A stretch of 64,000 nucleotides of DNA, from contig SLQW01000032.1 of assembly GCA_007131295.1 (NCBI GenBank), forward strand, positions 1-64,000, in the 5' to 3' direction. The DNA comes from Pseudomonadales bacterium (GTDB lineage Bacteria; Pseudomonadota; Gammaproteobacteria; Pseudomonadales; Azotimanducaceae). Shown here piece after piece: positions 49,561 to 64,000 of the stretch. The position numbers were made by a program, and so were the translations under genes. A model generated the notes under the pieces. The model was not told the DNA's origin. It did not search any database and saw only the letters and a list, made by a program, of their open reading frames with translations. Position 1 is the stretch's first letter. Every line of letters begins with the position of its first letter.

Positions 49561-50406
49561 ATGCGAGCTGCGATCGAAAGACGCTACGACAACGAGGTCG
49601 CGCAGATGCAAGCCAGCGTCGATTTCGACGGTGCGCCCAGCCTCTGGGCCGCCATCCGCCGCGAGGCTCTGGTCCTCGTAGAGCACGAGCCGATTCTCGG
49701 CAGCTTCTATCACTCGACCATCCTCAACCACGACGATCTCGGCGCCGCGCTCTCCTTTCACCTCGCGAACAAGCTCGACAGCGCGGTGCTCCCCGCGATG
49801 CTGATTCGGGAAGTGGTGGAGGAGGCCATCGCCGCCGACCCTAGCATTCTCAAGGCGGCAGAGATCGACATCATCGCGACGCGCACACGCGACCCCGCCT
49901 GCAACCATTTCGCGACGCCCTTCCTCTACTTCAAGGGGTTCCATGCGCTGCAGGCCCACCGGGTCGCCCATTGGCTCTGGATCGAGGGTCGTCATCCGCT
50001 GGCGCTGTTCATGCAGAACCAGGTCAGTGCGACCCTCGGTGTCGACATTCATCCGGCGGCCCGCCTCGGCAGTGGCATCATGCTCGACCACGCCACCGGC
50101 ATCGTCATGGGAGAGACCTCCGTGGTAGAGGACGATGTGTCCATCCTCCACTCCGTGACACTCGGCGGTACCGGCAAGGAAACCGGCGATCGCCATCCGA
50201 AGATCCGGCGCGGTGTCCTGCTCTCCGCCGGGGCCAAGATCATAGGCAACATCGAAGTGGGCGAAGGCGCCAAGGTCGGCGCCGGTTCGGTGGTGCTGGA
50301 GGACGTGCCGGCTCACGTCACCGTCGCCGGCGTTCCTGCGAAGATAGTGGGTCGGCCCGGCTGCGACTCGCCGGCGCTCGACATGAATCAGAGCCTCGCG
50401 GACTGA
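49561..50406 (+). CDS. cysE: Serine O-acetyltransferase
   Basis: This 281-residue long-type CysE has an N-terminal helical domain then a left-handed beta-helix of hexapeptide repeats: DIHPAARLGSGIMLDHATGIVMGETSVVEDDVSI (described in pieces) and GNIEVGEGAKVGAGSVVL. It makes O-acetylserine for cysteine synthesis. The fit to E. coli CysE begins about residue 17; ATG 49606 with GAGG upstream is a credible alternative start. It pairs conceptually with cysDNC in the same window. Confidence 0.95.
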   Translation: MRAAIERRYDNEVAQMQASVDFDGAPSLWAAIRREALVLVEHEPILGSFYHSTILNHDDLGAALSFHLANKLDSAVLPAMLIREVVEEAIAADPSILKAAEIDIIATRTRDPACNHFATPFLYFKGFHALQAHRVAHWLWIEGRHPLALFMQNQVSATLGVDIHPAARLGSGIMLDHATGIVMGETSVVEDDVSILHSVTLGGTGKETGDRHPKIRRGVLLSAGAKIIGNIEVGEGAKVGAGSVVLEDVPAHVTVAGVPAKIVGRPGCDSPALDMNQSLAD

Positions 50407-50419
50407 CGCGCTCGCGGCG

Positions 50420-50620
50420 ATGGGCCTGTTTCGGCGAGCGCTGATAGTTCTCGCAGCTCTGACGCTGCTTGCCGTTGCAGCCTTGCTGCTGCGCTGGCTG
50501 AGCGTCGACCCTGCCCCCGGGGAGACACCGGTTGCGAGCCTCGCCACGACCACAGGAATCACGTTGACACCCCGACGCCATTCAGTATCATGCGCGTCTC
50601 CCGAACGGGAGGGTGTTTAG
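50420..50620 (+). CDS. Doubtful small membrane ORF
   Basis: This 66-codon frame has one hydrophobic stretch (MGLFRRALIVLAALTLLAVA...). The second half is read through the tRNA promoter and ends inside tRNA-Val, which argues against a conserved protein. The hydrophobic N-terminus and its position 13 bp after cysE are the only support. It may be a decayed gene or chance. Confidence 0.2.
   Translation: MGLFRRALIVLAALTLLAVAALLLRWLSVDPAPGETPVASLATTTGITLTPRRHSVSCASPEREGV
50564..50591 (+). promoter_or_regulatory. Promoter of the tRNA-Val/tRNA-Asp operon
   Basis: Perfect -35 TTGACA (50564-50569), 16-bp spacer, -10 TATCAT (50586-50591), followed by a GC-rich discriminator (GCGCG) typical of stringently controlled stable-RNA promoters. 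It lies 19 bp before the tRNA-Val 5' end. Confidence 0.8.
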
Positions 50621-50686
50621 CTCAGTTGGGAGAGCGTCGGCCTTACAAGCCGAAGGTCGCAGGTTCGACCCCTGCAACACCCACCA
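50611..50686 (+). tRNA. tRNA-Val (anticodon TAC)
   Basis: This 76-nt sequence has a 7-bp acceptor stem GGGTGTT/AACACCC, D-loop AGCTCAGTTGGGAGAGC, anticodon TAC in CCTTACAAG, T-loop GGTTCGACCCC and an encoded CCA. Confidence 0.97.
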
Positions 50687-50701
50687 CGCATTGGGATCAG
50701 C

Positions 50702-50778
50702 GGAGCGGTAGTTCAGCTGGTTAGAATACCGGCCTGTCACGCCGGGGGTCGCGGGTTCGAGTCCCGTCCGCTCCGCCA
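50702..50778 (+). tRNA. tRNA-Asp (anticodon GTC)
   Basis: This 77-nt sequence has acceptor stem GGAGCGG/CCGCTCC, D-arm AGTTCAGCTGGTTAGAATACC, anticodon GTC in CCTGTCACG, T-loop GGTTCGAGTCC and an encoded CCA. It lies 15 bp after tRNA-Val in one operon. Confidence 0.97.
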
Positions 50779-50815
50779 CTTCTAACCGTTTTCCAAGATT
50801 AGACGATTCTCAGCC

Positions 50816-50831
50816 CGGCGTGAGCACGCCG
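50816..50831 (+). terminator. Hairpin downstream of tRNA-Asp
   Basis: CGGCGTG-AG-CACGCCG, a 7-bp perfect stem with a tight loop 38 bp after the tRNA. Possible terminator of the tRNA operon; no T-tract. Confidence 0.4.
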
Positions 50832-50840
50832 CGAGTCGCG

Positions 50841-50882
50841 GTGCGTGGCACCCAGTGCGTGGCACCCAGTGCGTGGCACCCA
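50841..50882. repeat. Three 14-bp tandem repeats downstream of tRNA-Asp
   Basis: GTGCGTGGCACCCA occurs three times in exact tandem (50841, 50855, 50869). Each unit contains the small palindrome GTGC-GTG-GCAC. Confidence 0.95.
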
Positions 50883-50885
50883 AGC

Positions 50886-50922
50886 CGAGTCCCGGCCGCC
50901 CCGCCACTTCTAACCGATTCCT
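50886..50922 (+). repeat. Second copy of the tRNA-Asp 3' end
   Basis: This segment matches 32 of 37 bases of 50758-50794, which spans the T-arm, acceptor 3' strand, CCA and 16 bp beyond tRNA-Asp. The copies are 128 bp apart with the 14-bp triple repeat in between. No integrase gene is nearby. Confidence 0.85.
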
Positions 50923-50981
50923 TCCTTTTCAGCACCGTCCGATCTGCTTCGCCGGACCAAGCGCAGGCGTTGCGAGAACCT

Positions 50982-51025
50982 GGTGGGGAGGTGCGCTCGC
51001 CGCAGGCGAGTGCGCCGCCGATCTG
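50982..51025 (+). repeat. REP-like element, copy E (divergent)
   Basis: GGTGGGGAGGTGCG head, stem CTCGCC-GCA-GGCGAG, and tail TGCGCCGCCGATCTGC. It is the most diverged of the five copies. Confidence 0.7.
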
Positions 51026-51603
51026 CTTCGCTCCCGCCAGCGTCGCTCATGCTGATCAGCACCCCTCCCTGATGGCACCACACCGTCGCATGGCAGCGCC
51101 ACGGACGCCGGAGTCCGATCAAAGCCCTTTGCGGAAGCGCCGGCGAAACCAAATGATTCATGGACTTGCCAGCAGTGCTTAACGAAAACTTCATGATTCA
51201 AGGCGATCATGGCAGCCCGTTACGGCCAACGCGAGCCTGATAATCATGTACGCCCCAAACCGCTGCGAACCGCTGAATGAACCCACCGAGCCCGATGACT
51301 TCGACGACGGCGTGGAGATGTAACCCTTCCACGCCGCGTCAACCCGCCTCGAGCCTCGTTTCAAGCCCTTCCGCTTCCCTCTTGAACGCCGTTCACGCCA
51401 ATCAAATCAGTTAGTTAAACGATCCGCTGACCATCGGTCCACGATCTCGCCAACTCCGTCACAAACCGAACGTGAAGGGGTAGTGCGTTATGGCAGCTCG
51501 AGCGGTTCTAGACTTCACTCAAAGTACGGCGCGGCGCCCCTGCAGTCACTCTGCTGCGGGAGATAGCCCCAGGGCTCGCAGTACCAGCATTCGGAGGCAA
51601 CAG
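51026..51603. other. Gene-free stretch upstream of the coiled-coil gene
   Basis: No supported gene. A 25-codon ORF at 51246-51323 ends in an acidic tail (EPTEPDDFDDGVEM) and cannot be confirmed. The octamer ATGATTCA occurs twice (near 51150 and 51192). A/T-rich sequence near 51400-51420 (AATCAAATCAGTTAGTTAAAC) may hold the promoter for the downstream gene. An open frame extends from 51490 in frame with that gene but lacks its own RBS. Confidence 0.4.
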
Positions 51604-52506
51604 ATGGACTGGCGGCAACGCAATCTCATGGCCGAGGCGATCTTCCTATTCGAGGGTGACGAGATCATCATCGAGCTGCGCTATGACGATTTCCGCGCCA
51701 AGCTGCTTAACGGTGAAAGCATCGAACCGTTCAAGGACGAGACAGTCCGCGGCGCCTACATCGCCATTGGGGACGGCCTTACCGTGGAGGCGGTCTGCCT
51801 GTTTCTGGTGCAGTTCGACAAGCACGGTGTCGGTCAGGCCGACTGGAACCTGCCGGTGCGCGAGCTGGCCCACGCCAGCGGCGATGGGCCAGATCTCGGT
51901 GCCGGGCCGATTCGCCTCGCTGGCCGCGGCCAGTGCTCAATCCCCTGGCACAACCTTCGCCTTTGGATGCCGCGAGATCCGAACCAGGTGGTGGTGTGCA
52001 AACAGATCCAGGCAGCGGTCAGCCGCAACAGCCTCGGTTTCCGAGCCGTACGTCCGACCAAGCTGACAGCGCTCGCCCTGGAGGGCGATCGCGGCACGAT
52101 CATGAAGACCCAGAAGATGCCATCGCTCGCCGACCACCCGGCGGCTGCCGCACTCGTCGGCAAACCTGCGATTCCGGACCGGCCCGAACTCGGTGCCCAC
52201 CCTCGGCAACCTCTGGAGTTGAACGTCCGCGCAGCGGATTTGCGCACCAGCGGTGCAATCCGGGCGCTGAAGGAAGCCGAAGCAAGCTTTGAGCGCGCCT
52301 TCGGGCGTGAGGGCCGGCTCAGCGAAGAGCAGGCGAAGCGGGCGCGCAACCTCGGCGCTGCCATCGCCCAACTCCGCGCAGCTCACGCCCGCGAGCTGGC
52401 GCAGGTGCGTTCTGCTCACGAGCGCACCGTTTCCAGCCTGAAAAACGAGATTCAGCGGCTGCGAGTCGAGATTGAGCGCTTGAGCAAGCGCCGCGAGATG
52501 TCCTGA
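51604..52506 (+). CDS. Conserved hypothetical protein with C-terminal coiled coil
   Basis: This is 300 residues from ATG 51604 (GGAGG six bases upstream). Residues about 10-135 form a compact alpha/beta domain (AIFLFEGDEIIIELRYDDF, AYIAIGDGLTVEAVCLFLV, ADWNLPVRELA, GPIRLAGRGQCSIPWHNLRLW). Residues about 215-300 form a long coiled coil ending SLKNEIQRLRVEIERLSKRR. The domain looks like a conserved gammaproteobacterial family of unknown function; the coiled coil suggests oligomerisation. It stands alone, with a hairpin directly at its stop. Confidence 0.8.
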   Translation: MDWRQRNLMAEAIFLFEGDEIIIELRYDDFRAKLLNGESIEPFKDETVRGAYIAIGDGLTVEAVCLFLVQFDKHGVGQADWNLPVRELAHASGDGPDLGAGPIRLAGRGQCSIPWHNLRLWMPRDPNQVVVCKQIQAAVSRNSLGFRAVRPTKLTALALEGDRGTIMKTQKMPSLADHPAAAALVGKPAIPDRPELGAHPRQPLELNVRAADLRTSGAIRALKEAEASFERAFGREGRLSEEQAKRARNLGAAIAQLRAAHARELAQVRSAHERTVSSLKNEIQRLRVEIERLSKRREMS

Positions 52507-52547
52507 GGGGCTTCACGAAGCCGGGCGAGGACCGGCTGAAGCCCCTC
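52505..52547 (+). terminator. Inverted repeat at the end of the coiled-coil gene
   Basis: GAGGGGCTTCA ... TGAAGCCCCTC is a perfect 11-bp stem with a 21-nt loop that starts at the stop codon. Terminator or transcript-stabilising hairpin. Confidence 0.55.
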
Positions 52548-52642
52548 TGGCAACCTGTTTGGATGTCCCCGTCCCCTCCCTTAGTGCGCCCCTGGCGCAC
52601 TTTTCTTTTGTGCCCCCAAAACCTGCAGCCGCAGCAGCCATT

Positions 52643-52680
52643 TGTGGGAAGGTGTGCTCGCCAACGGCGAGCGCGCCGAT
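52643..52680 (+). repeat. REP-like element, copy D (best match)
   Basis: TGTGGGAAGGTGTG head, stem CTCGCC-AAC-GGCGAG, and tail CGCGCCGATGA. The five copies share TGTGGGAAGG-N-GTG, a variable 5-7 bp GC palindrome, and (C)GCGCCGAT. The layout is like the short palindromes (REPs) of Pseudomonas, whose head is TGTGGGAG. Confidence 0.88.
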
Positions 52681-52730
52681 GAAGACGCCGAATCACCGCA
52701 AACCACAACCCGGCCCGACACCCACCGCGA

Positions 52731-53462
52731 TCACTCGCTCTCGAACTGCCCAGCCACAATGCTCCACGGCGCTGCCGTCACCAGCCGCTCCGCCTCCTCT
52801 GCACCGACGATCCGCGCCGCCGCCGCGCGCCCGCCGTCGAGCTCCGGCGGCCGCGCCTTCAGATTGTGAGCATCCGAGGCCAGCACCGTCGCCCAGCCCT
52901 GCTCGAGAATGTGCCGCGCCAGCTTCGCCGCCGGCTTGCCGAAATCCCCCGCCACGGCGCCAGCGGTAAGCTGGAGGAGGCAGCCGGATTCCACGAACGG
53001 CTCAATTCGTTCCGGCTCACGCATCAGCAACCTGTTGCGCTCGGGATGAGCGATCATCGGCCGCACCCCGCGCTTGCGCAGCCAGGCCACGAGCTTGTCT
53101 GTACCCGGCGGCACGGCGCCATGCGGTAGCTCGAGCAGCAGGACGTCTTCGCCTTCAAAACGGCCGAGCAGCGGCATACGTCCTTCTGGCAACCAGGTGA
53201 GTATCTCGGCGCAGACCCGCACTTCTGCCGCCATGCCGAGAGCCAGCGGCAGCCCCTCCTCTGCCACCGCCGCACGCAGCTCTGCGAGCTTCGCAGCAAT
53301 GATCCCGTGCTCGTTGTCCCAGCGACCGGGATGGATGTGCGGCGTCACCACCGCATGGGTGATGCCACTCTCCACCGCATGCCGACAAAGCGCCAGCGAC
53401 GTGGCAAGGTCCGGCGCGCCGTCATCAATGCCCGGCAGAAGATGGCAGTGGATGTCGATCAA
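52731..53462 (-). CDS. CpsB/CapC-family tyrosine-protein phosphatase (PHP domain)
   Basis: This 243-residue PHP metallohydrolase has MIDIHCHLLPGIDDGAPD at the start (metal ligands), VVTPHIHPG, ELPHGAVPPG, IAHPERN and LASDAHN. It is homologous to B. subtilis YwqE and pneumococcal CpsB, which dephosphorylate the tyrosine kinase that controls capsule synthesis. TTG 53462 with GGAG six bases upstream gives the family's N-terminus; the longer frame from 53537 is not homologous. Located at the edge of the polysaccharide locus. Confidence 0.9.
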   Translation of the reverse strand: MIDIHCHLLPGIDDGAPDLATSLALCRHAVESGITHAVVTPHIHPGRWDNEHGIIAAKLAELRAAVAEEGLPLALGMAAEVRVCAEILTWLPEGRMPLLGRFEGEDVLLLELPHGAVPPGTDKLVAWLRKRGVRPMIAHPERNRLLMREPERIEPFVESGCLLQLTAGAVAGDFGKPAAKLARHILEQGWATVLASDAHNLKARPPELDGGRAAAARIVGAEEAERLVTAAPWSIVAGQFESE

Positions 53463-53727
53463 AGATGGCTCCGATCGCGAAACATGATCGCTTCGCCGAT
53501 GATACCCGAGGCGGCCACCCCAGACCCATCGCCACACTAATACAGTCGGGCTTGCCCTCAGAGGCTCATCTTCACCCGCAGGCAGCCGACCCGGCGATCA
53601 TGGTCTGCGGCTTCGGCGGAAAATCCAGACTGTCCGCGCCAACGCCTGCACCCTCCAGCAACCACGGATCTCTGACGCGGCAGCGATCACCAACGTGTCC
53701 CAGGTCGCTGGTTGCAGGTCTCGCAGG
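53463..53727. other. Spacer between the phosphatase and nucleotide-sugar dehydrogenase genes
   Basis: I see no gene or clear hairpin. It follows the dehydrogenase gene on the same strand and may carry the phosphatase promoter. Confidence 0.35.
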
Positions 53728-55026
53728 TCAGAGGCGGATGTCGGCGCTGCCGCGCGGGAGGACGGATTTGACGTCGTAGACGATGCCATCGGGCATCGCC
53801 CAGCGGCGGATCGCTTCAGCGCCCTCGATCACGAATTCGCGGTGAGGAACAGCCAGAATCACCGCATTGTAGGCACCGGCTTTCGGTGCGGACGTGAGCA
53901 GCTCGAGACCGTACTCGTCTTTCGCTTCCTCCGCAGCTACCCAGGGGTCATACACGTCCACGTGGGCATGGTAGCTCTCTAGTTCCTCGATGATGTCCAC
54001 GACGCGCGTGTTGCGCAGATCCGGGCAGTTCTCCTTGAACGCGAGGCCGAGCACCAGAATGCGGGCGTCTCGGACCGCCATGCCGCGCTTGATCATGCAC
54101 TTGATGGTGCTGTCGGCGATCCAGGTGCCCATGCCGTCGTTGGTGCGGCGGCCTGCCAGGATCATCTCCGGGTGGTGGCCGATCTCCCGGGCCTTGTGGG
54201 TCAGGTAATAGGGATCGACGCTGATGCAGTGCCCGCCGACGAGCCCGGGGCGGAACGGCAGGAAGTTCCACTTGGTGCCCGCGGCCTCGAGAACTTCGAG
54301 AGTATCTAGGCCGAGCCGGCTGAACAGGATTGCAAGTTCGTTGATCAACGCGATGTTGACGTCGCGCTGGGTATTCTCGATGACCTTCGCCGCCTCCGCG
54401 ACGCGAATGGAGCTGGCCTTGTGAGTCCCGGCCGTCACCACGCGGGCGTAGAGCGCATCGACGTGATCGGCACACTTCGGCGTCGAACCCGAGGTGACCT
54501 TCGTAATGCGGGTGAAGGAATGCTCGCGATCGCCCGGGTTGATTCGCTCCGGACTGTAGCCGACGAAAAAGTCGGCATTGAAGCGCAACCCGGATACGCG
54601 CTCGAGTTCCGGCACACAGACCTCTTCAGTTGCACCCGGATAAACCGTCGATTCGTAGATCACCACATCCCCCGGCGCAAGCACGCTGCCGATGGTCTGG
54701 CTCGCCCGTATCAGCGGGGTCAGATCGGGAGTCTTATGTTCGTCCACGGGTGTCGGGACCGTGACGATGTAGGTATTGCAGGCAGCGAGATCTGCAGGGT
54801 TCGCGCTGAAATAAAGGCGTGACGACGCCTCTAGTTGCTCCGGTGTGACTTCGCGAGTGTGATCGCGGCCCTGCTTCAGCGCCTCGATGCGCCCCTCCGA
54901 GATGTCGAAGCCCACCGTGTCGACAAGGCGGCCAAACTCTACAGCAAGCGGCAAGCCGACGTAGCCGAGCCCGACAACGCCCAGGCGGAAGTTTTCGGGC
55001 GCTATGAATCGGTCAGGTTCAGACAT
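53728..55026 (-). CDS. UDP-N-acetylhexosamine 6-dehydrogenase (TviB/WbpO-like)
   Basis: This 432-residue enzyme has Rossmann motif LGVVGLGYVGLPLAVEFG, TPVDEHKTPDL, ESTVYPGATEEVCVPELE, the catalytic segment GGHCISVDPYYLTHKA (active Cys) and GLAFKENCPDLRNTRV. It oxidises UDP-GlcNAc or UDP-GalNAc to the uronic acid for acidic polysaccharides. The closest types are Vi-antigen TviB and Pseudomonas WbpO. ATG 55026 has only a weak RBS. Confidence 0.93.
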   Translation of the reverse strand: MSEPDRFIAPENFRLGVVGLGYVGLPLAVEFGRLVDTVGFDISEGRIEALKQGRDHTREVTPEQLEASSRLYFSANPADLAACNTYIVTVPTPVDEHKTPDLTPLIRASQTIGSVLAPGDVVIYESTVYPGATEEVCVPELERVSGLRFNADFFVGYSPERINPGDREHSFTRITKVTSGSTPKCADHVDALYARVVTAGTHKASSIRVAEAAKVIENTQRDVNIALINELAILFSRLGLDTLEVLEAAGTKWNFLPFRPGLVGGHCISVDPYYLTHKAREIGHHPEMILAGRRTNDGMGTWIADSTIKCMIKRGMAVRDARILVLGLAFKENCPDLRNTRVVDIIEELESYHAHVDVYDPWVAAEEAKDEYGLELLTSAPKAGAYNAVILAVPHREFVIEGAEAIRRWAMPDGIVYDVKSVLPRGSADIRL

Positions 55027-55174
55027 CGATCGGGAATCCTGTCGGCATAGATGTGCCCGTGCGTTTCCATGAACGCGGGGCTGAAGTGTGCGCCCAGATC
55101 AAGGACAGGGTTGATCACAGTGACAACCCTGCCCGCCCTTGCACTGAGAGGTGGCTTCGCGAACACACGCCAGC

Positions 55175-56521
55175 TCAACCCTGCGCGGTGATCAGTTCGC
55201 CGAGACGTTCGGTCATAGCGGCCAGGCGCGCCGGGTCTGCGCGAGTTTCGACGTTGAGGCGGATCACCGGTTCCGTGTTGGAGCCACGCAGGTTGAAGCG
55301 CCAATCGGCGAACTCGACGCTAACGCCGTCGGTCCGATCAACCTGCGGCGATTCGGCAGCGAAGGCTTCGAGGACACGGTCGATGGTAGCCGCGGTGTCG
55401 CTGACCTCGAAATTGATTTCGCCGCTGCAGGGATAGGCGGCGATGCGCTCGTCCACCAGACTCGAGAGTGGCCGGCCGCTGACGGAGAGCTGCTCGGCTA
55501 CCAGCAGCCAGGGAATCATGCCGCTGTCGCAGTAGGCGAAGTCGCGGAAGTAGTGATGCGCAGACATCTCGCCGCCGTAGAGGGCATCCTCGGAACGCAT
55601 CCGCTCCTTGATGAAGGCGTGGCCGGACTTGCACTGCACCGCCTTGCCACCGGCGGCCTCGACCTGAGCCAGGGTGTTCCAGGTCAGGCGGGGATCGTGA
55701 ATCACCTTGGCACCAGGCTCTTTCGTGAGCAGGCGCTCGGCAAGCAGGCCCACCAGATAGTAGCCCTCGATGAAGCGGCCCTGCTCGTCGAAGAAAAAGC
55801 AGCGGTCAAAGTCGCCATCCCAGGCGAGACCGAGATCAGCATTGTTCTCGAGGACGGCAGCGCTGGTCGCGGCACGGTTCTCCGGCAGCAGCGGATTCGG
55901 AATACCATTCGGAAAGGTGCCGTCGGGCTCAGCGAATACGCGAATCAGCTCCACGGGCAGGTGCGGCTCGAGGGCGTCGAGAACGAGACCCGCACCACCG
56001 TTGCCTGGATTGACGATGACTTTCAACGGCTTCAGCTGCGCCCGGTCGACATAGCCCAGAAGATGCTCGATGTACGCGGGTCGGGCGTCGAGGCGATGTA
56101 GCGTGCCGCGATTCGTCGCCGGCTCGAAATCGCCTGCGGCGAGGCGGGCCTCGATGTCCTTCAGGCCGCTGTCGCCGCTGATGGGGCGGGAGCCCTCACG
56201 CACCAGCTTCAAGCCGTTGTAGTCGATAGGGTTGTGGCTGGCGGTGACCATGATGCCGCCGCCGTGCCTGAAATGGGCGGTGGCGTGGTAGACCTCTTCA
56301 GTGCCGCACATGCCGATGTCATAGACATCGCTACCGCCGTCGAGCAAGCCCTCGATGAGCGCAGCAGCGAGTTTCGGGCTGCTCAGCCGAATGTCATGAC
56401 CGACCACAGTGCTTGCGGGCTTGACGAGCTCGACGTAAGCACGGCCGATCCGATAAGCGATGTCTTCATTGAGCTGATCCGGGACCCGGCCGCGGATGTC
56501 GTAGGCCTTGAATGGACTCAT
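55175..56521 (-). CDS. manB: Phosphomannomutase (ManB/CpsG-like)
   Basis: This 448-residue alpha-D-phosphohexomutase has [19 protein letters not shown], the phosphoserine loop [12 protein letters not shown], the metal loop DGDFDRCF, the sugar loop [10 protein letters not shown] and the phosphate loop [11 protein letters not shown]. It resembles E. coli CpsG and supplies Man-1-P for GDP-mannose. It is in the same orientation as the dehydrogenase, 148 bp apart. Confidence 0.94.
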
Positions 56522-56642
56522 GGAGCGTTCTACCTGATCAGTGATGGATAATGGCTGTCGAAGGCATCAGTAAAGCAGCCCTCAGGACCGAGGCCGCAGG
56601 CCCCGGCTCGTTCTTCCTCGGCCAACGTACAGACCTCACGCG

Positions 56643-56990
56643 TCAGTCATCAATCGCGGCCAGCTTGCTGACCTCCCGCTTCAATTCCTCGATCTCGGCC
56701 TTCAGGGCGGCGTATTCACGTTGCTTGCGGGCCAGAAACCGCAGGGTAACGCGTGCCTTCTCCTCGAGCCCACGCGACGTGAGGCGATAGACATAGGCCT
56801 GCTTGTTACGGCTGTTGCGAAAGCTGCGCGCCTTGACCAGACCACGCTCGACCAGTGCACGCAGGCAATAGTTGGTCTTGCCGAGGCTGATGCCGAGCTC
56901 GGCAGCGAGATCGCGCTGGGACGCCTGCGGATTGCGTTCCAGCAGGCGCAGAAGTCGCAGCTGCGCTTCGTCGGTGATGGGTGGCGACAT
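56643..56990 (-). CDS. MarR-family EPS-associated transcriptional regulator
   Basis: This 115-residue winged-helix protein has DEAQLRLLRLLERNPQASQRDLA, LGISLGKTNYCLRALVERGL, KQAYVYRLTSRGLEEKARVT and a C-terminal helix (ALKAEIEELKREV). It matches the small MarR-like regulators found with exopolysaccharide clusters. ATG 56990 gives the family length; the frame's upstream part to 57098 is unrelated. It likely controls the adjoining polysaccharide genes. Confidence 0.9.
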   Translation of the reverse strand: MSPPITDEAQLRLLRLLERNPQASQRDLAAELGISLGKTNYCLRALVERGLVKARSFRNSRNKQAYVYRLTSRGLEEKARVTLRFLARKQREYAALKAEIEELKREVSKLAAIDD

Positions 56991-57230
56991 GGCTCGAGGT
57001 TCAGGGGTCCAAATTCCGACAATGGCCCGGACCGACGTCCGGCACGCTACAGCACTACCGCGATTACTTGAGACGGTATCCGCCCGCAGAAAAGCCAAGC
57101 AGGGCTGTGGCCCAAAGGCGCCGACATCGATCGCGATTCTCGTTCAATTGCTGAACGGTAGGCTACGTCCCGCTTCGAGGGCTGGCAACCACTTCAGCAC
57201 TCCGGGTGCATGTCAGCGGCGGGCGTTTCA
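56991..57230. other. Spacer upstream of the EPS regulator gene
   Basis: This is the first part of the 600-bp gap to cysD. It contains no supported gene. The regulator promoter should lie here. Confidence 0.35.
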
Positions 57231-57517
57231 GGACACCCAGAAATCGCCGCCCAGTTAAGGACACCCAAGTTTTGGTCTCCCGCGTTCGAGTCGGGGGATG
57301 AATCGTGGACACCCAGACATTCAAAGCTCCGTCCGACCGTATCCTGCAAAGGTAGAGCCAGCGCTGCTGGATGTCCTATTGAGTCGTCGAGTGATACCGA
57401 TGACTCCTGGATGTCCGTTGTCGCGCCCCCCCCCTGGGTGGCTCCACGATATCTGGGTGTCCGGTTTCGGCTCTCCGGTTTCGGCTCGCTGCTTCCCGTC
57501 GCGAATTTTGGGTGTCC
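57231..57517. repeat. Cluster of seven GGACACCC/GGGTGTCC motifs
   Basis: GGACACCC occurs at 57231, 57259 and 57307. The complement-direction forms GGATGTCC (57369, 57409) and GGGTGTCC (57455, 57510) follow. Flanks are partly shared (CCCAAGTTTT versus AATTTTGGG). A direct 14-bp repeat (CGGTTTCGGCTCTC/CGGTTTCGGCTCGC, about 57462-57489) and a run of nine C (57426-57434) lie between. The mirror-like order suggests a decayed mobile element or a regulator-binding array. Confidence 0.8.
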
Positions 57518-57590
57518 GGTCTCGTGAGCCGTGCCACGGGGGAGGTGAGCCGGTAGGATGCTCAGCGGCTGGAAAGGGACGACGGGGCTC

Positions 57591-58502
57591 ATGATCGATA
57601 CGCGACAACTCACCCACCTCGAGCGGCTCGAGGACGAGAGCATCCACATCATTCGCGAGGTCGTGGCGGAGACCGAGCACCCAGTGATGCTCTACTCGAT
57701 CGGCAAAGACAGCTCGGTGATGCTGCACCTGGCCATGAAGGCCTTCTACCCGGCGAAACCGCCCTTTCCCCTGCTCCACATCGACACGCGCTGGAAGTTC
57801 CAGGAGATGTACGCATTCCGGGACCGCATCGCCCAGGAGATGGGCATGGATCTTCTGGTCTACGTCAATCCGGAGGGCGAACGCCGCGGCATCGATCCCT
57901 TCACCCACGGCTCGGCGATCCACACGGACGTCATGAAGACCGAAGCACTCAAGCAGGCCCTGAACCAGTACGGCTTCGATGCGGCCTTCGGCGGCGCCCG
58001 CCGCGACGAGGAGAAGTCGCGAGCCAAGGAGCGCATCTTCTCCTTCCGGACCAACCAGCACCGCTGGGACCCGAAAAACCAGCGCCCCGAGCTGTGGCGG
58101 CTCTACAACGCCCACAAGCACAAGGGTGAGTCGATCCGCGTCTTCCCGCTTTCGAACTGGACCGAACTCGACGTCTGGCAGTACATCTATCTGAAGAACA
58201 TCCCCATCGTCCCGCTCTACTTCGCCGCCGAACGGCCCGTGGTGCAGCGTGACGACGCCCTGATCATGGTCGACGACGAGCGCATGCCGCTGGCACCCGG
58301 AGAGCGCCCGGCCATGCGTAAGGTGCGCTTCCGCACCCTCGGCTGCTACCCGCTGACCGGCGCGATCGACTCCGAGGCCGAGACCCTGACAGCGATCATT
58401 CAGGAGATGCTTCTGACCCGCACCTCGGAACGCCAGGGTCGGGTAATCGACCACGATGCCGCGGCTTCGATGGAGAAGAAAAAGCAGGAAGGCTACTTCT
58501 GA
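57591..58502 (+). CDS. cysD: Sulfate adenylyltransferase subunit 2
   Basis: This 303-residue protein of the PAPS-reductase-like superfamily has [18 protein letters not shown], the PP-loop [43 protein letters not shown] and [15 protein letters not shown]. Together with CysN it makes APS from sulfate and ATP. ATG 57591 matches the family N-terminus; an ATG at 57558 with a GGAGG site would add 11 residues. It overlaps cysNC by one base. Confidence 0.96.
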
Positions 58503-60409
58503 TGTCCCACGCCCACGACGATCTCATCGCGCAGGACATCGAGCAGTACCTCGCCCGCCACGAGCGCAAGGAGCTGCTTCGCTTCATCACCTGCGGCAGC
58601 GTCGACGACGGCAAGAGCACGCTTATCGGGCGGCTCTTATTCGACTCCAAGATGCTGTTCGAGGACCAGCTCGCCGCCATCGAGCGCGACTCGAAGAAGT
58701 GGGGCACCCAGGCCGACGGCATCGACCTCGCGCTGCTGGTGGACGGTCTCGCCGCGGAACGCGAACAGGGCATCACCATCGACGTCGCCTACCGGTTCTT
58801 TGCCACCGACCGGCGCAAGTTCATCGTCGCCGACACGCCCGGCCACGAGCAGTACACCCGCAACATGGTCACCGGCGCATCCACCGCGGATGCGGCGATC
58901 CTGCTGATCGACGCCCGTCGCGGCGTGCTTACCCAAACCCGGCGCCATGGCTTCCTGGCCCACCTTCTTGGCATCCGCCACATCGTGCTCGCGATCAACA
59001 AGATGGATCTGGTCGGTTTCAGCGAGGAGACCTATAGGGAGATCGTCGCCGAGTTCAAGGCCTTTGCCGAGATGATCGGCATACAGGCGTTCACCGCCAT
59101 TCCGGTCTCGGCACTGAAAGGCGACAACGTCATCGAGCCGAGCGGGAACATGGACTGGTACACCGGCCCTACGCTGCTCGAGCTGCTCGAGCTGGTGGAA
59201 GTCGACACGACGCGACTGCTGCGCGCGCCGTTCCGCCTGCCGGTGCAGTGGGTGAACCGGCCCAACGCCGAGTTTCGCGGCTTCTGCGGCAGCATCGTCA
59301 GCGGCGCTATCGCAACCGGCGAGCGGATCAGAGTGCTGCCTTCAGGCAGGGAGAGCCGGGTCGAACGGATCGTAACCGCCGAAGGCGACCTACCGCAGGC
59401 GCAAGCCGGCCAATCGGTGACGCTGACGCTCAGCGACGAGGTGGACATTTCCCGTGGCGCCGTGATCGCTGCCGCCGATGCGCCGCCGGAGACCGCAGAT
59501 CAATTCGAGGCACGCATCGTCTGGATGCAAGACGACCCCCTGTTTCCGGGCCGCAACTACCTTTTCAAGGCCGGAACCAGCACCGTGGTCGGCACGGTCA
59601 CAGCGATCAAGTATCAGGTGAACGTGAACACGCTCGAGCATCTCGCGGCCGAGAAGCTCGAGCTCAACGGCATCGGCGTGTGCAACATCAGTCTCGACCG
59701 GGCGATCGCCTTCGATCCCTATGACGCCAACCGGGAGATGGGCAGTTTCATTCTCATTGACCGTCTGACGCATCAGACCTGTGGCGCCGGCATGCTGAAT
59801 TTTGCGCTGCGTCGGTCCCACAACATCCATCAGCAGCACGTGGACGTGGACAAGGCATCGCGCGCTGTCCTCAAGGGCCACCGCGCCGGCCTGGTGTGGT
59901 TCACTGGGCTTTCCGGTTCCGGCAAATCGACGGTGGCGAATCTGGTCGAAAAGCGTCTCCACGGCCTCGGCGTGCACACCTATCTGCTCGACGGTGACAA
60001 CGTCCGCCACGGGCTCAACCGGGATCTCGGTTTCACCGAAGCGGACCGGGTCGAGAACATCCGCCGGGTCGCTGAAGTGGGTAAGTTGATGGTGGACGCC
60101 GGCCTGATCGTGCTGACCGCGTTCATCTCCCCGTTCCGCTCCGAGCGAAGGCTCGCCCGCGAGCTGCTTGCGGAGGGTGAGTTCATCGAAGTGTTCATGA
60201 ACACGCCCCTCGACGTTGCCGAGCAACGCGACCCCAAGGGGCTCTACAAGAAAGCCCGCCGCGGTGAGCTGAAAAACTTCACCGGCATCGACTCACCGTA
60301 CGAGCCCCCGGAGCATGCGGAGATCACGCTGGACACCTCGCGCATGCCTCCCGAAGAGGCCGCCGACCGAGTGCTCGCTACGCTGCGCCAGCTCGGCTTT
60401 ATCCGCTGA
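58502..60409 (+). CDS. cysN: Bifunctional sulfate adenylyltransferase subunit 1 / APS kinase (CysNC)
   Basis: This is a 635-residue fusion. Residues 1 to about 440 are an EF-Tu-like GTPase (GSVDDGKST at 32-40, [15 protein letters not shown]). Residues about 460-635 are APS kinase with Walker [10 protein letters not shown] (469-477), [15 protein letters not shown] and the FISPF block. It yields PAPS. As the locus holds polysaccharide genes, part of the PAPS may serve sulfotransferases, which are not in view. Confidence 0.96.
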
Positions 60410-60456
60410 CCGGCGCCGTACCCGAGGGCTTGGAGGCCATCTCGTTTGGAGGCTCT

Positions 60457-60972
60457 CTAGCCCGACTTCAGTACGCGTTCGATTTCAGTCAGAGTCGCGC
60501 GAGCCATACGCAAGAGGGCAGGGACACGCTGATGCGCCGTATCAAGGGCGTCTGCGAGGTCGAGGATGTCCTCGTTGTACTCATGAACCATCTGCTCGTG
60601 CAGCTTCAGGTGCCGAAGCCAAGCCTCCGCCGAATCGATCCAGCCAAGACGCTCGGCACGCTTAAGATCAGCCGCCGCTGATCCAGCAGCGACGCCACGA
60701 TGCGCAAGCAGCGCGGGGATCAGGCGCTGGCTAAGGGTGTCCTGAAGACGCACGTAGCGGCTTACGAAAGCGTCGAGCCGTTCCGACAGGTCGACATCGG
60801 CGATCCAGTCCGCAACCGTGCTTGGAATGACGATCTCAACATCGGCAAGCAGCCGTTTCGCCGACTGCTCGAGCAGGTCGATCTCTGTGGCGACGACGCG
60901 TGCGAGAAAGCGCAGCCCGGCCTCACCGTCTTCATCCTCGCTCAACGGACCGACCCCGCTGTGCCAGCGCAA
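60457..60972 (-). CDS. HEPN-like helical protein without its nucleotidyltransferase partner
   Basis: This is up to 171 residues, all helical: VATEIDLLEQSAKRLLAD, RYVRLQDTLSQRLIPALL, KRAERLGWIDSAEAWL and LKLHEQMVHEYNEDI. This is the pattern of HEPN/nucleotidyltransferase-substrate-binding proteins that pair with an MNT toxin-antitoxin partner. The usual R-N-x-x-V-H-x-Y appears here as H-E-Q-M-V-H-E-Y, so the key Arg is replaced. Starts at TTG 60972 or TTG 60945, both poor. No MNT gene is nearby. Confidence 0.65.
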   Translation of the reverse strand: MRWHSGVGPLSEDEDGEAGLRFLARVVATEIDLLEQSAKRLLADVEIVIPSTVADWIADVDLSERLDAFVSRYVRLQDTLSQRLIPALLAHRGVAAGSAAADLKRAERLGWIDSAEAWLRHLKLHEQMVHEYNEDILDLADALDTAHQRVPALLRMARATLTEIERVLKSG

Positions 60973-61213
60973 CGACGCTCGTAAACGTCACGCTCACTGC
61001 AAAACAGCATATCGGCAGACAGGGTCATAGTCGCATCCGTTGCGGGCCCCTTGCGCCTTTTGATCGTATCAGTTCGAGCGCATCCGTCCGATAAAGCTCC
61101 CGACCTCCAGCTTTAGGCAGCCAACGAGGCCGAGGCTGCGCCCGCAGCACAGGGGTCTGGTGCATCTCGGTCGGACGGCTGCGCCCGTCCGGGAGGGCAG
61201 ACCCAGAATACGC

Positions 61214-62221
61214 TCAGACGTCGTAATAGCGACGATACCAAGCCACGAAGCGCTCGACGCCCTCTTCCACCTCAACCTCCGGTTTGTAGCCAACCGCCTC
61301 GAACAGCTCCGAGACATCGGCTTCGGTATCCGGTACGTCGCCGGGCTGTAGCGGCAGCATCGCCATCTCGGCCTTGCGGTTGAGACAGCGCTCGAGCACT
61401 TGAATATATCGCAACAGCGTCACCCGCGCCTCACTACCGATGTTGTAAAGGCGATACGGAGCAAGACTGCTCGCCGGGTCCGGATCGTCGCCATCCCAGC
61501 CCGGATCCGGCGCTGCAACGCGGTCGAGCGTGCGAACCACACCTTCGACGATGTCGTCGATGTAAGTGAAGCTGCGGCTGTGGTTGCCGTGGTTGAATAC
61601 CTTGATCGGTTCCCCCGCCAGGATCGCGCGCGTGAACAGAAACAGCGCCATGTCTGGCCTGCCCCACGGTCCGTAGACTGTGAAGAAACGCAGCCCCGTA
61701 CTCGGGATGCCATACAGGTGAGCATAGCTGTGGGCCATCATTTCATTGGCCTTCTTCGTCGCAGCGTAGAGGGTCAATGGATGCTCGGTGGACTGGTGTT
61801 CCGAAAACGGCATACGGGTGTTGGCACCGTAAACCGAACTGGTGGAGGCAAATACGAGATGCTCTACCTCATGCTGCCGGCAGCCCTCGATCACATGCAG
61901 GAATCCGGTGAGGTTACTGCTCACGTAAACATGTGGATTCTCGGCGGCGTAGCGCACGCCAGCCTGAGCAGCGAGATGGACCACACGCTGCGGCCGGTGC
62001 GTCGCGAACAGCGTTTCCATCGCCTCACGGTCTGCCAGGTCAGCCGCAACATGGGCGTAGCCCGAAGCACATTCGAGCCGAGCAAGACGGGCGCGCTTCA
62101 GAGAGACATCGTAGTAGTCGTTCAGGTTATCGAGGCCGATAACCTCGTCGCCACGGTCGAGCAGATACTGCGCTACGTGACTGCCGATGAAGCCGGCGGT
62201 ACCGGTGACCAGGACCTTCAT
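61214..62221 (-). CDS. UDP-glucuronate 4-epimerase
   Basis: This 335-residue SDR enzyme has NAD motif [33 protein letters not shown] (the GAE/CapI signature), [15 protein letters not shown], catalytic Ser-Tyr-Lys in FASTSSVYG and YAATKKANE, and [17 protein letters not shown]. It converts UDP-glucuronate to UDP-galacturonate for polysaccharide. It lies downstream of tRNA-Pro on the same strand, across the 81-bp repeats. Confidence 0.94.
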
Positions 62222-62269
62222 CGCAGCTCCATTTCTTCTCTAACGAACGCGCCGGCAAATGGCGCCACG

Positions 62270-62462
62270 CGATGACCAGAGTCGCGGGCCAGTGCTCGTT
62301 TGGTCGGGGCGGCCGGATTCGAACGGTTCCGCCCGCGGCGACGACCACCGGGGTCGCAAGACCCCTGGGTCAGTCCTCGTTTGGTCGGGGCGGCCGGATT
62401 CGAACGGTTCCGCCCACGGCGACGACCACCGGGGTCGCAAGACCCCTGGGTCAGTCCTCGTT
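62270..62462 (-). repeat. Two 81-bp tandem repeats derived from the 3' half of tRNA-Pro
   Basis: Units at 62301-62381 and 62382-62462 differ at one base. Each has 24 bases identical to the tRNA-Pro 3' end including CCA, then a 14-base insert, then 11 more tRNA bases, then a 32-base spacer with the hairpin GGGGTC-GCAA-GACCCC. A degenerate third spacer remains at 62270-62300. The layout is reminiscent of the rtT repeats after E. coli tyrT. Confidence 0.95.
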
Positions 62463-62539
62463 TGGTCGGGGCGGCCGGATTCGAACCGACGACCACCACA
62501 CCCCCAGTGTGGTGCGCTACCAGGCTGCGCTACGCCCCG
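62463..62539 (-). tRNA. tRNA-Pro (anticodon GGG)
   Basis: This 77-nt sequence on the minus strand has acceptor stem CGGGGCG/CGCCCCG, D-arm AGCGCAGCCTGGTAGCGC, anticodon GGG in CTGGGGGT, T-arm GGTTCGAATCC and an encoded CCA. It is followed on the same strand by two modified copies of its own 3' half. Confidence 0.97.
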
Positions 62540-62736
62540 TGAGGGCGCGGATTGTACCGGATGTCATGAGACGCGGGAACCAAAGCAACGCGCAGACGGT
62601 GACGCGCATCAGGACATGCACCGTGCGTCGCCCAAAAGCCACCGCCCGCGTCATGCGGGTCCTGATGGACAGGCACTTCACGCGCTACACTGCGCTCGAC
62701 TCCTATGAGTCTCTGTCAGTACGGGAAAGCACGCGC

Positions 62737-63246
62737 ATGGACCGTTGGTACGCCGTCTTCACCAAGCCTCGCCAAGAGCACGTTGCCGAAGAACACCTGG
62801 AGCGGCAGGCCTTCACGGTCTGGTTGCCCAGGCTGGAGCACAGCGTTCGGCACCGAGGCCGCTGGGTAGACCGGATTGAGCCGTTGTTTCCGCGCTACCT
62901 TTTCTTGCAGGCAGACGCAGCCGATCAGGATCTATCTACGATTCGCTCTACGCGTGGCGTGACCGGCCTGGTGCGTCAGGGCATCGAGCCAGCAGTCGTT
63001 CCAGAGCAGGTCATCAGCTTTCTACGCGAGACCGCCGACCCCGAGTCTGGACTGCACCACATCGGCAGCCCGGCCCGTTTCAAGCGTGGTGATCGCGTGC
63101 GCGTCATCGAAGGACCCTTTGAGGGTCTTGAAGGCGTCCTGCTCAAGGAGAAGGGGGAAGAGCGTGTCCTTGTCCTACTCGCGATCCTCGGAGGCGAGCG
63201 CAACGTCGCACTCTCCACGCAGCAACTGATGCGCGCCAGAGGCTGA
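62737..63246 (+). CDS. rfaH: RfaH-like transcription antitermination factor (NusG paralogue)
   Basis: This 169-residue protein has NusG N-terminal domain RWYAVFTKPRQEHVAEEHLERQ, LFPRYLFLQADAA, TRGVTGLVRQG, and KOW domain FKRGDRVRVIEGPFEGLEGVLL. RfaH-type factors help RNA polymerase through long polysaccharide operons. It fits the adjoining locus. The ATG at 62737 has GGGAAAG upstream; the long frame from 62272 is only the tRNA repeats read as protein. I did not find an ops site in this window. Confidence 0.9.
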   Translation: MDRWYAVFTKPRQEHVAEEHLERQAFTVWLPRLEHSVRHRGRWVDRIEPLFPRYLFLQADAADQDLSTIRSTRGVTGLVRQGIEPAVVPEQVISFLRETADPESGLHHIGSPARFKRGDRVRVIEGPFEGLEGVLLKEKGEERVLVLLAILGGERNVALSTQQLMRARG

Positions 63247-63411
63247 TCGGCGCGCCACACCGCCCCGTCGACCTACTCACCACCTGCTCAAAACAGACCA
63301 AGGAGGCGCAGCAGCGGCGTTTTGCGTGTCCCATATCAGAAGTACGTGCGTACGATGGGCCATGAGTCGCGCGGGCGCCAACGCAAGAAGGTTGACGTGC
63401 GGGAGATAGAG
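63247..63411. other. Spacer between the convergent rfaH-like and MerR genes
   Basis: No gene or strong terminator hairpin is seen in this 165-bp convergent gap. Confidence 0.35.
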
Positions 63412-63768
63412 TCAACTTTTGAGGACGGAGAGAACGTCCTCGAGCTCGACGATCATCTGGCGAATCAATTGCTTGTACTGGGTGACGTCTTCGCGGGCGT
63501 CCTCCCCTTCCAGGCGCTGCCGAGCGCCACCGATAGTGAAACCCTGATCGTAGAGCAGAGAGCGGATCTGGCGGATGCAGATCACGTCACCGCGCTGATA
63601 GTAACGACGGTTGCCGCGGCGCTTGACTGGCTTGAGCTGAGGGAACTCCTGCTCCCAATAGCGGAGAACGTGGGGCTTCACGTCACAAAGCTGGCTGACT
63701 TCACCGATCGTGAAGTAGCGCTTGCCCGGAATCGGCGGCAACTCCTTGTTGTCACTTGCCTCCAGCAT
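63412..63768 (-). CDS. MerR-family transcriptional regulator downstream of ihfA
   Basis: This 118-residue protein has the MerR winged helix: [51 protein letters not shown] (described in pieces), ending in a helix [17 protein letters not shown]. This is the small MerR-like gene that follows ihfA in many gammaproteobacteria. Its start overlaps the ihfA stop by 17 bp, so the two are co-transcribed. The effector is unknown. Confidence 0.93.
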
Positions 63769-64000
63769 ACGCCTCTACTCGCGCCTTGAGCTTCTGTCCG
63801 GGCCGGAAAGTCACCACGCGACGCGCGGAAATGGGAATTTCCTCTCCGGTTTTCGGATTACGCCCCGGCCGCTCAGCCTTGTCGCGGAGGTCGAAATTGC
63901 CGAACCCCGACAGCTTGACCTGTTCGTTGCGCTCGAGCGCACTACGAACCTCTTCAAAGAAGAGTTCCACAAGTTCCTTTGCCTCGCGCTTATTGAGGCC
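63752..64000 (-). CDS. ihfA: Integration host factor alpha subunit (partial, N-terminus off right edge)
   Basis: The visible 82 C-terminal residues read [20 protein letters not shown], then [40 protein letters not shown] and [12 protein letters not shown], matching IhfA with the DNA-intercalating Pro in [13 protein letters not shown] bends DNA in replication, recombination and transcription. The reading frame leaves the window without its start. Confidence 0.96.

Follow-up and report, generated by a model that had tools for sequence, protein, structure and literature searches.

The locus considered here raises the question of what seven near-identical octamers, packed into 287 bp between a regulator gene and a cysD-like gene, are doing at that place. 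The original prediction for the window, that is, the whole 64-kb stretch of DNA that was analysed, had offered two readings of this cluster: a remnant of a palindromic mobile element, or an operator array serving the divergent regulator and cysDNC. The gene at 57591..58502 is one that we take, with that prediction, to be cysD-like. The features are listed below; all motif copies come from a motif scan of the window.

56643..56990, minus strand: regulator gene (named "MarR-type EPS regulator" in the original prediction), outside the element; from the open reading frame list, with the ATG at 56990 taken from the sequence
57226..57527, no strand: segment with the mirrored array, without counterpart in the sister species G002; from the flank alignment to G002
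57231..57238, plus strand: motif copy GGACACCC
57259..57266, plus strand: motif copy GGACACCC
57307..57314, plus strand: motif copy GGACACCC
57369..57376, minus strand: motif copy GGACATCC (the plus strand reads GGATGTCC)
57409..57416, minus strand: motif copy GGACATCC (the plus strand reads GGATGTCC)
57455..57462, minus strand: motif copy GGACACCC (the plus strand reads GGGTGTCC)
57510..57517, minus strand: motif copy GGACACCC (the plus strand reads GGGTGTCC)
57552..57561, plus strand: GGTAGGATGC upstream of cysD, host sequence outside the array; seen by eye
57591..58502, plus strand: cysD-like gene, a neighbour outside the element; from the open reading frame list

Read along the plus strand, positions 57231-57517 hold three GGACACCC followed by two GGATGTCC and two GGGTGTCC, the last being GGACACCC read on the minus strand; there are five exact copies and two GGATGTCC variants, of which the first three point one way and the remaining four the other, and the count, the turn and the coordinates agree with what had been described. 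The same holds for the smaller features: a 14-bp direct repeat, CGGTTTCGGCTC, is present in two copies 14 bp apart, a run of nine C lies at 57426-57434, and the AAGTTTT / AATTTT resemblance of the flanks is visible by eye. As had also been claimed, chance would give almost no such copies. The pattern GGACAYCC occurs 19 times on both strands of the window, 12 of them outside the cluster, where no 287-bp stretch holds more than 2. At this outside rate 0.054 copies are expected per 287 bp, and the Poisson probability of at least seven is 2.6e-13, or about 1e-10 once the length of the window is allowed for. The largest cluster in 200 first-order Markov windows was one copy (175 windows) or two (25 windows) per 287 bp. 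When one mismatch was allowed, the octamer was not over-represented across the window (75 found, 68 expected). The unusual feature of the octamer in the window is thus its clustering and not its overall abundance. As single-stranded DNA the whole array folds better than shuffled sequences (z -2.95), a value that is not distinctive because any mirrored set of copies would give the like. A hairpin for each unit (TCTGG-GTGT-CCAGA) was considered and dropped, since it can be drawn for GGGTGTCC and fails by eye for GGACAGGC and GGACACAC. An Rfam search of positions 50000-64000 returned tRNAs only. Around one tRNA gene of the window (62466-62539, minus strand), positions 62218-62700 appear, in several frames, to be three near-identical tandem copies, which looks like a tandem duplication taking in the end of the tRNA gene.

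We then looked for the array elsewhere. A genome search had been suggested as a way of recognising mobile-element debris by copies flanking transposases. The long probe TTTTGGGTGTCC occurs at one place in the assembly, and the whole array used as a query likewise found only itself. What recurs is the octamer with its nearest neighbours, or pairs of octamers, and the motif does flank transposase genes (see below). Pairs of the form GGACACCC-N5-35-GGACACCC were found eight times in the assembly, against none for the reversed control; six lie on C14, the window's own contig (at 57.2, 66.8, 72.3 and 78.6 kb), and one each on C97 and C152. With GGACAYCC the pairs numbered 12 in the genome under study (G000; reversed pattern 0), 80 in G001 (1), 85 in G004 (1), 38 in G011 (0) and 59 in G008 (1), so that arrays are far more numerous in the sister species G001 and G004. 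Among the 12 pairs of G000, the two on C129 and C192 lie inside genes and may be due to chance. The motif is therefore not restricted to this locus, as clusters recur both in its own genome and in relatives. A single array was found in G005, whose assembly is fragmentary and in which no transposase was found.

By eye, some arrays are intergenic (C14 at 57.2 and 66.8 kb), and the copies at 78.6 kb of C14 and at C97:8896 each abut an open reading frame at its 3' end. Many arrays of G001 and G004 advance by a regular 19-bp step, for example GGACATCCACAAAAGTATT, and the spacers in G000 are longer and mutually unlike. The four C14 arrays contain 19 exact GGACAYCC and 3 copies with one mismatch; A follows all 19 exact copies and AG follows 14 of them. 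Over 174 copies the consensus is GGACA..Ca. At the fetched loci neighbouring copies switch from forward to reverse 13 times and from reverse to forward once; the direction of this turn was unselected, since the loci had been fetched through same-direction pairs or through genes. A CGTCAGC-type word (e.g. TGACGTGCAGCGTCAGCTTCTGACG) was seen beside arrays at L010, L011, L036 and L038 and is perhaps a second conserved part of the element. It was also seen by eye that L033 (G005) and L038 (G004), from assemblies said to be of different species, look almost identical in array and surroundings, which may reflect either a recent transfer or mixed bins.

The place of the array upstream of cysD was compared in four congeners. 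The word GGTAGGATGC is also found there, by eye, in G001, G002 and G004, and G003 reads GGTACGATGC. In G002, whose contig ends before the next gene upstream of cysD, the 350 nt available align with the left flank of the window up to about 57224 (score 96, maximum of 39 in 100 shuffles) and not with the array (score 24, shuffled mean 25.6); the score of 28 for the right flank, from about 57528, is not significant alone (shuffle maximum 32). No array was found upstream of cysD in G003. A single facing pair, GGACATCC-12 nt-GGATGTCC, is present in G004, and G001 has a longer mixed array, with a make-up unlike the window's. In G001, G003 and G004 cysD is also preceded by another gene than in the window. 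An array that is absent, minimal or differently built in the four congeners speaks against an operator; non-conservation upstream of orthologous cysD was one of the conditions that the original prediction had listed together as refuting its reading.

A second site gave a similar picture. It lies between two genes that we take, from their translations, to be a UDP-glucose dehydrogenase-like gene and pheT. Arrays fill this gap in G000, G001 and G004, each of a different make-up, and there is none in G002 (26 nt between the aligned parts), in G005 (14 nt) or in G003 (181 nt, with one GGACACGC). G002 is thus without an array at both comparable sites. Since array presence varies at both sites among sister species, arrays come and go and cysD manages without one; the empty sites could also be losses, for example in G002.

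Beside the C97 array we found the open reading frame of a Y1-type transposase. A second copy, 49% identical to it, is found at C14:75181-76212, past the end of the window and 17.7 kb farther along than the window's array. Both copies score under the family cut-offs (33 bits for the NCBIfam RAYT model NF047646, cut-off 80; 15-17 for Pfam Y1_Tnp, cut-off 23). The Pfam Y1_Tnp match in this genome, on C173, is another transposase of shorter length whose 2.3-kb locus lacks the octamer, and was set aside; as Pfam finds only this gene, the relevant transposase family falls under the Pfam cut-off. A profile built from the two own proteins found relatives at 72 places in 27 of 58 genomes, the own genome included. 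Most full copies are 299-368 amino acids long (about 300-370). Over 61 loci, two of which hold shortened copies without the part bearing the HuH motif, NHYH is the commonest form of this motif, with NHFH, NHCH, NHHH, NHTH, NHLH and one DHYH besides; the own copies read NHYH (P0002) and NHCH (P0001). The W motif is most often FWE, with FWD, FWQ or FWG in some, and FW..R was not found in the NHFH clade. The Y motif is YVDLNP in most and YADLNP in P0002 and two congeners. From N72 to Y184 of P0002 there are 112 residues, a long HUH-Tyr stretch, the comparison being one of length. The family matches the HuH motif NHYH, the WE and the YVDLNP of TnpAY1 subclass 2.3, and on these signatures the transposase would be a RAYT-like Y1 (HUH) enzyme of that type.

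A fold was predicted for the relative L077, with a mean pLDDT of 59.5, so that only the core of the model is usable. With this model Foldseek gave E. coli TnpAREP (4ER8) as the best solved match (E 7e-4), the sole one below 0.001, and VIA-align 2 also placed 4ER8 at the top (Z 10.6, rmsd 3.6, 157 residues aligned), followed by IS608 transposase with Z of 7.0 or lower. By sequence, A3 had no more than a chance match among solved structures (E 0.59).

Several transposase genes of the genus lie directly after tRNA genes (L075, L048, L050, L074), with downstream neighbours that, by eye, seem to be kept across species; such places and neighbours make these genes look vertically inherited and not freely hopping. 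In G013, transposase gene fragments (C43:15538-16028 and C31:2-406) adjoin GGACAYCC arrays and two longer transposase copies carry TGACACAC copies, which suggests two lineages with separate repeats in one genome.

The flanks of the transposase genes were then read for the motif, 500 nt on each side where available, at 61 loci (60 of the 72 places and L077, from another collection). GGACANSC was found upstream 55 times forward and 11 times reverse, and downstream twice forward and 60 times reverse (Fisher 2e-22, a value that is indicative only because the copies are not mutually independent). The motif was in the right orientation on both sides of 18 loci and on one side of 16, with none in place at 27; the latter include loci with a variant (GGACACAC, TGACACAC, GGACAGAC) and loci with incomplete flanks, which does not account for all of them. 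Clear examples of facing copies are seen in G007 (nine), G011 (fourteen) and G008 (six). Both copies of the own genome depart from the standard arrangement: within 500 nt the motif is mainly reverse upstream and absent downstream. When every 8-mer in the flanks of 32 loci was counted without the motif being named (one place entered twice), GACACCCA, GGACACCC, GACATCCA, GGACATCC and GGACAGGC came out at the top.

The motif also varies with the transposase. For 36 labelled rows of 59, the NN letters of GGACANNC need 16 changes on the transposase tree; in 300 shuffles the mean was 22.8 and the lowest number 18. In the NHFH-type clade nine of ten labelled rows have CA at NN, and the tenth (L124) has GG. 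The variable letters of the motif follow the transposase tree. In G029 the flanks read GGACAGCC, whereas the dispersed pairs were sought and found as GGACAGGC. Thirteen named plasmid records (Pseudoalteromonas, Shewanella, Vibrio and others) provided a partly independent set. The core GACACCC lies there 14 times forward and twice reverse upstream, and 10 times reverse and never forward downstream (p 1e-5), in a test that was not blind, as this 7-letter core was picked after viewing those flanks. It occurs at 2.0 per kb near the gene compared with 0.04 per kb farther off, and on both sides in 4 of the 13 loci. The strict GGACANSC, with 7 copies in these records (p 0.43), was too rare for the test.

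Genomes with and without the transposase were also compared. With the loose pattern GGACANSC, which misses variants such as GGACACAC, motif pairs numbered 691 against 219 for the control in the 27 genomes with a transposase, and 159 against 179 in the 31 genomes without one (Mann-Whitney p 0.0012 between the groups). Taken singly, 15 of the 27 and 2 of the 31 had a clear excess, defined as four or more pairs and more than double the control. In the genus, the C14-type gene occurs together with arrays in G000, G001 and G004; the only type in G002 and G003 is the other one (NHCH), and pairs there are not in excess (16 vs 16 and 19 vs 20, respectively).

Some arrays also lie close to a transposase gene. 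In a count that omits arrays within 600 nt of a transposase, and for which the motif pattern differed between genomes, the clusters at 20 kb or less from a transposase gene numbered 4 of 7 in G000, 7 of 42 in G004, 4 of 6 in G029 and 3 of 5 in G018; the expected share was about 2% or less (p no higher than 2.3e-5 in each genome). Three further genomes, with a transposase and a complete list of arrays, gave 3/3 (G039), 1/1 (G047) and 2/3 (G052, p 0.02); they add little, since with a 2-kb cut their counts shrink to 1/1, 1/1 and 0/1, G000 being unchanged. Most clusters of G004 are far from any known copy of the transposase gene. The transposase contig C52 of G001 looks crowded with arrays, among the matches listed. 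Such nearness, if true on complete chromosomes, would inform how Y1 enzymes reach their DNA.

These results make it probable that the cluster is a gene-less, REPIN-like mirrored array, made of the cognate repeat GGACANNC(A) of a RAYT-like transposase bearing subclass 2.3 signatures, and that its position between the regulator gene and cysD is incidental. The mobile-element half of the original prediction is thus supported, as the motif faces Y1 genes and gene-less clusters occur elsewhere; the remnant of a palindromic element is a less apt description, the arrays looking more like a separate family of repeats that has its cognate transposase. More tentatively, and with somewhat less than even confidence, we propose that a subclass reported to be repeat-less acts on a non-palindromic word of 8 nt, arranged in mirrored arrays, and spreads these arrays preferentially within about 20 kb of its own gene, as if in cis on nearby single-stranded DNA. 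The transposase would recognise the motif, and would probably do so on single-stranded DNA, in which pairing between facing copies is possible; it would cut and join strands, so that gene-less arrays get copied or moved, and this would happen preferentially close to its gene. In the own genome the likely partner is the gene at C14:75181-76212. Both binding and mobilisation by the transposase are inferred here; no transposition was seen. CT stands directly before GGRTGTCC in 14 of the 19 own copies of the four C14 arrays. The proposed mechanism is drawn by analogy: TnpAREP enzymes cleave REP DNA in single-stranded form, next to the repeat and at CT or CA (PMC8266576), and RAYTs have been proposed as responsible for the spread of REPs (PMC2817692).

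Other explanations have to be weighed against this one. An operator array, with octamers that the divergent MarR-type protein or a sulfur regulator would bind so as to control cysDNC and its own gene, would suit the position of the array between divergent genes, and also the contrast between exact octamers (19 exact, 3 with one mismatch in the four C14 arrays) and their unlike spacers. However, an operator would hardly be missing from the 350 nt seen in G002 and from G003, reduced to one pair in G004 and of another make-up in G001, and the motif is also seen beside transposase genes in several orders, as well as at many further places. We consider this half of the original prediction very unlikely, and annotators should not call clusters of this kind operators without a test when they lie upstream of biosynthetic genes. 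Less still can be said for chance or for mutational repeats, such as slippage in an intergenic region: some spacers do contain short tandem duplications, the 14-bp repeat among them, but the probability computed over the window, the consistent turn in orientation and the recurrence in other genomes, with a reversed-pattern control near zero, make this reading scarcely credible.

The arrays might also be older host repeats with another function that the transposase merely targets, as some IS enter REPs. Gene-less clusters outnumber the genes in G000, G001 and G004, and the two transposase types of the genus sit at seemingly conserved places, several beside tRNA genes, while the arrays vary by species, all of which would fit such an origin. 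Against it, the gene sits centrally with motifs facing inward in many lineages, the letters of the motif track the transposase tree, and the 31 transposase-free genomes, as a group, have no excess of pairs. We regard host repeats as improbable, if less so than an operator, and retain the reading of the cluster as a gene-less array of the transposase's own repeat.

In the literature searched, from whose coverage many journals are absent, there was no report of the octamer repeat with this transposase family. The available part of a 2025 survey of REPs (PMC12306157) contained no mention of the terms for this repeat system. In a Shewanella paper that matched the octamer, the match was a PCR primer.

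Among known systems, TnpAY1 subclass 2.3 is the closest on the side of the protein. As described by Quentin et al. 2018 (PMC6006769), this subclass has a median length of 325 amino acids, the motifs NHYH, WE and YVDLNP, a 55-amino-acid insertion between the HUH and Tyr cores and a C-terminal domain, and is found in Alteromonadales. The transposase described here shares the three motifs and the occurrence in Alteromonadales, and the length of most of its full copies would be compatible. In contrast, it comes with a repeat, whereas the automatic and manual searches reported in the same text yielded no REP-like sequences with subclasses 2.1 and 2.3. The octamer would thus provide a candidate DNA partner for a subclass that this text lists without associated repeats (PMC6006769). 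The activity of subclass 2.3 would become testable with plain oligonucleotides, for example ones bearing GGACACCCAGA.

The TIRYT family is comparable on the side of the repeat. TIRtrons, as described by Di Nocera et al. 2013 (PMC3733652), are RAYT relatives flanked by inverted repeats that are not of the GTAG type, with some dispersed families and clusters, and the present system resembles them in each of these respects. The TIR motif given there, GGGGWSAS, does not fit GGACANNC, whose consensus is GGACA..Ca, and Quentin et al. place 20 of 26 TIRYT examples in subclass 2.1 and the other six in 2.2 and 2.5 (PMC6006769).

The broadest likeness is to the REP, REPIN or BIME elements and their RAYT (TnpAREP). 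In both cases a Y1 transposase gene is flanked by short inverted repeats, copies without the gene are dispersed and the motif varies together with the transposase, and the predicted fold is nearest to TnpAREP 4ER8. Inverted repeats flanking the gene in the manner of a REPtron are found for the set as a whole (both sides in 18/61 loci and in 4/13 plasmid records), the own two copies departing from it. The differences lie in the repeat and in the protein. The GT[AG]G foot of REPs is absent from the consensus of the 174 copies and no hairpin per unit was seen by eye; the conserved part is the octamer GGACANNC in variable surroundings, and the protein, of about 300-370 amino acids, has a long stretch between the HUH and Tyr motifs. 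The arrays lie near the gene above expectation in several genomes. We therefore call the system a new variant of RAYT-REP, in which an octamer array takes the place of the GTAG hairpin.
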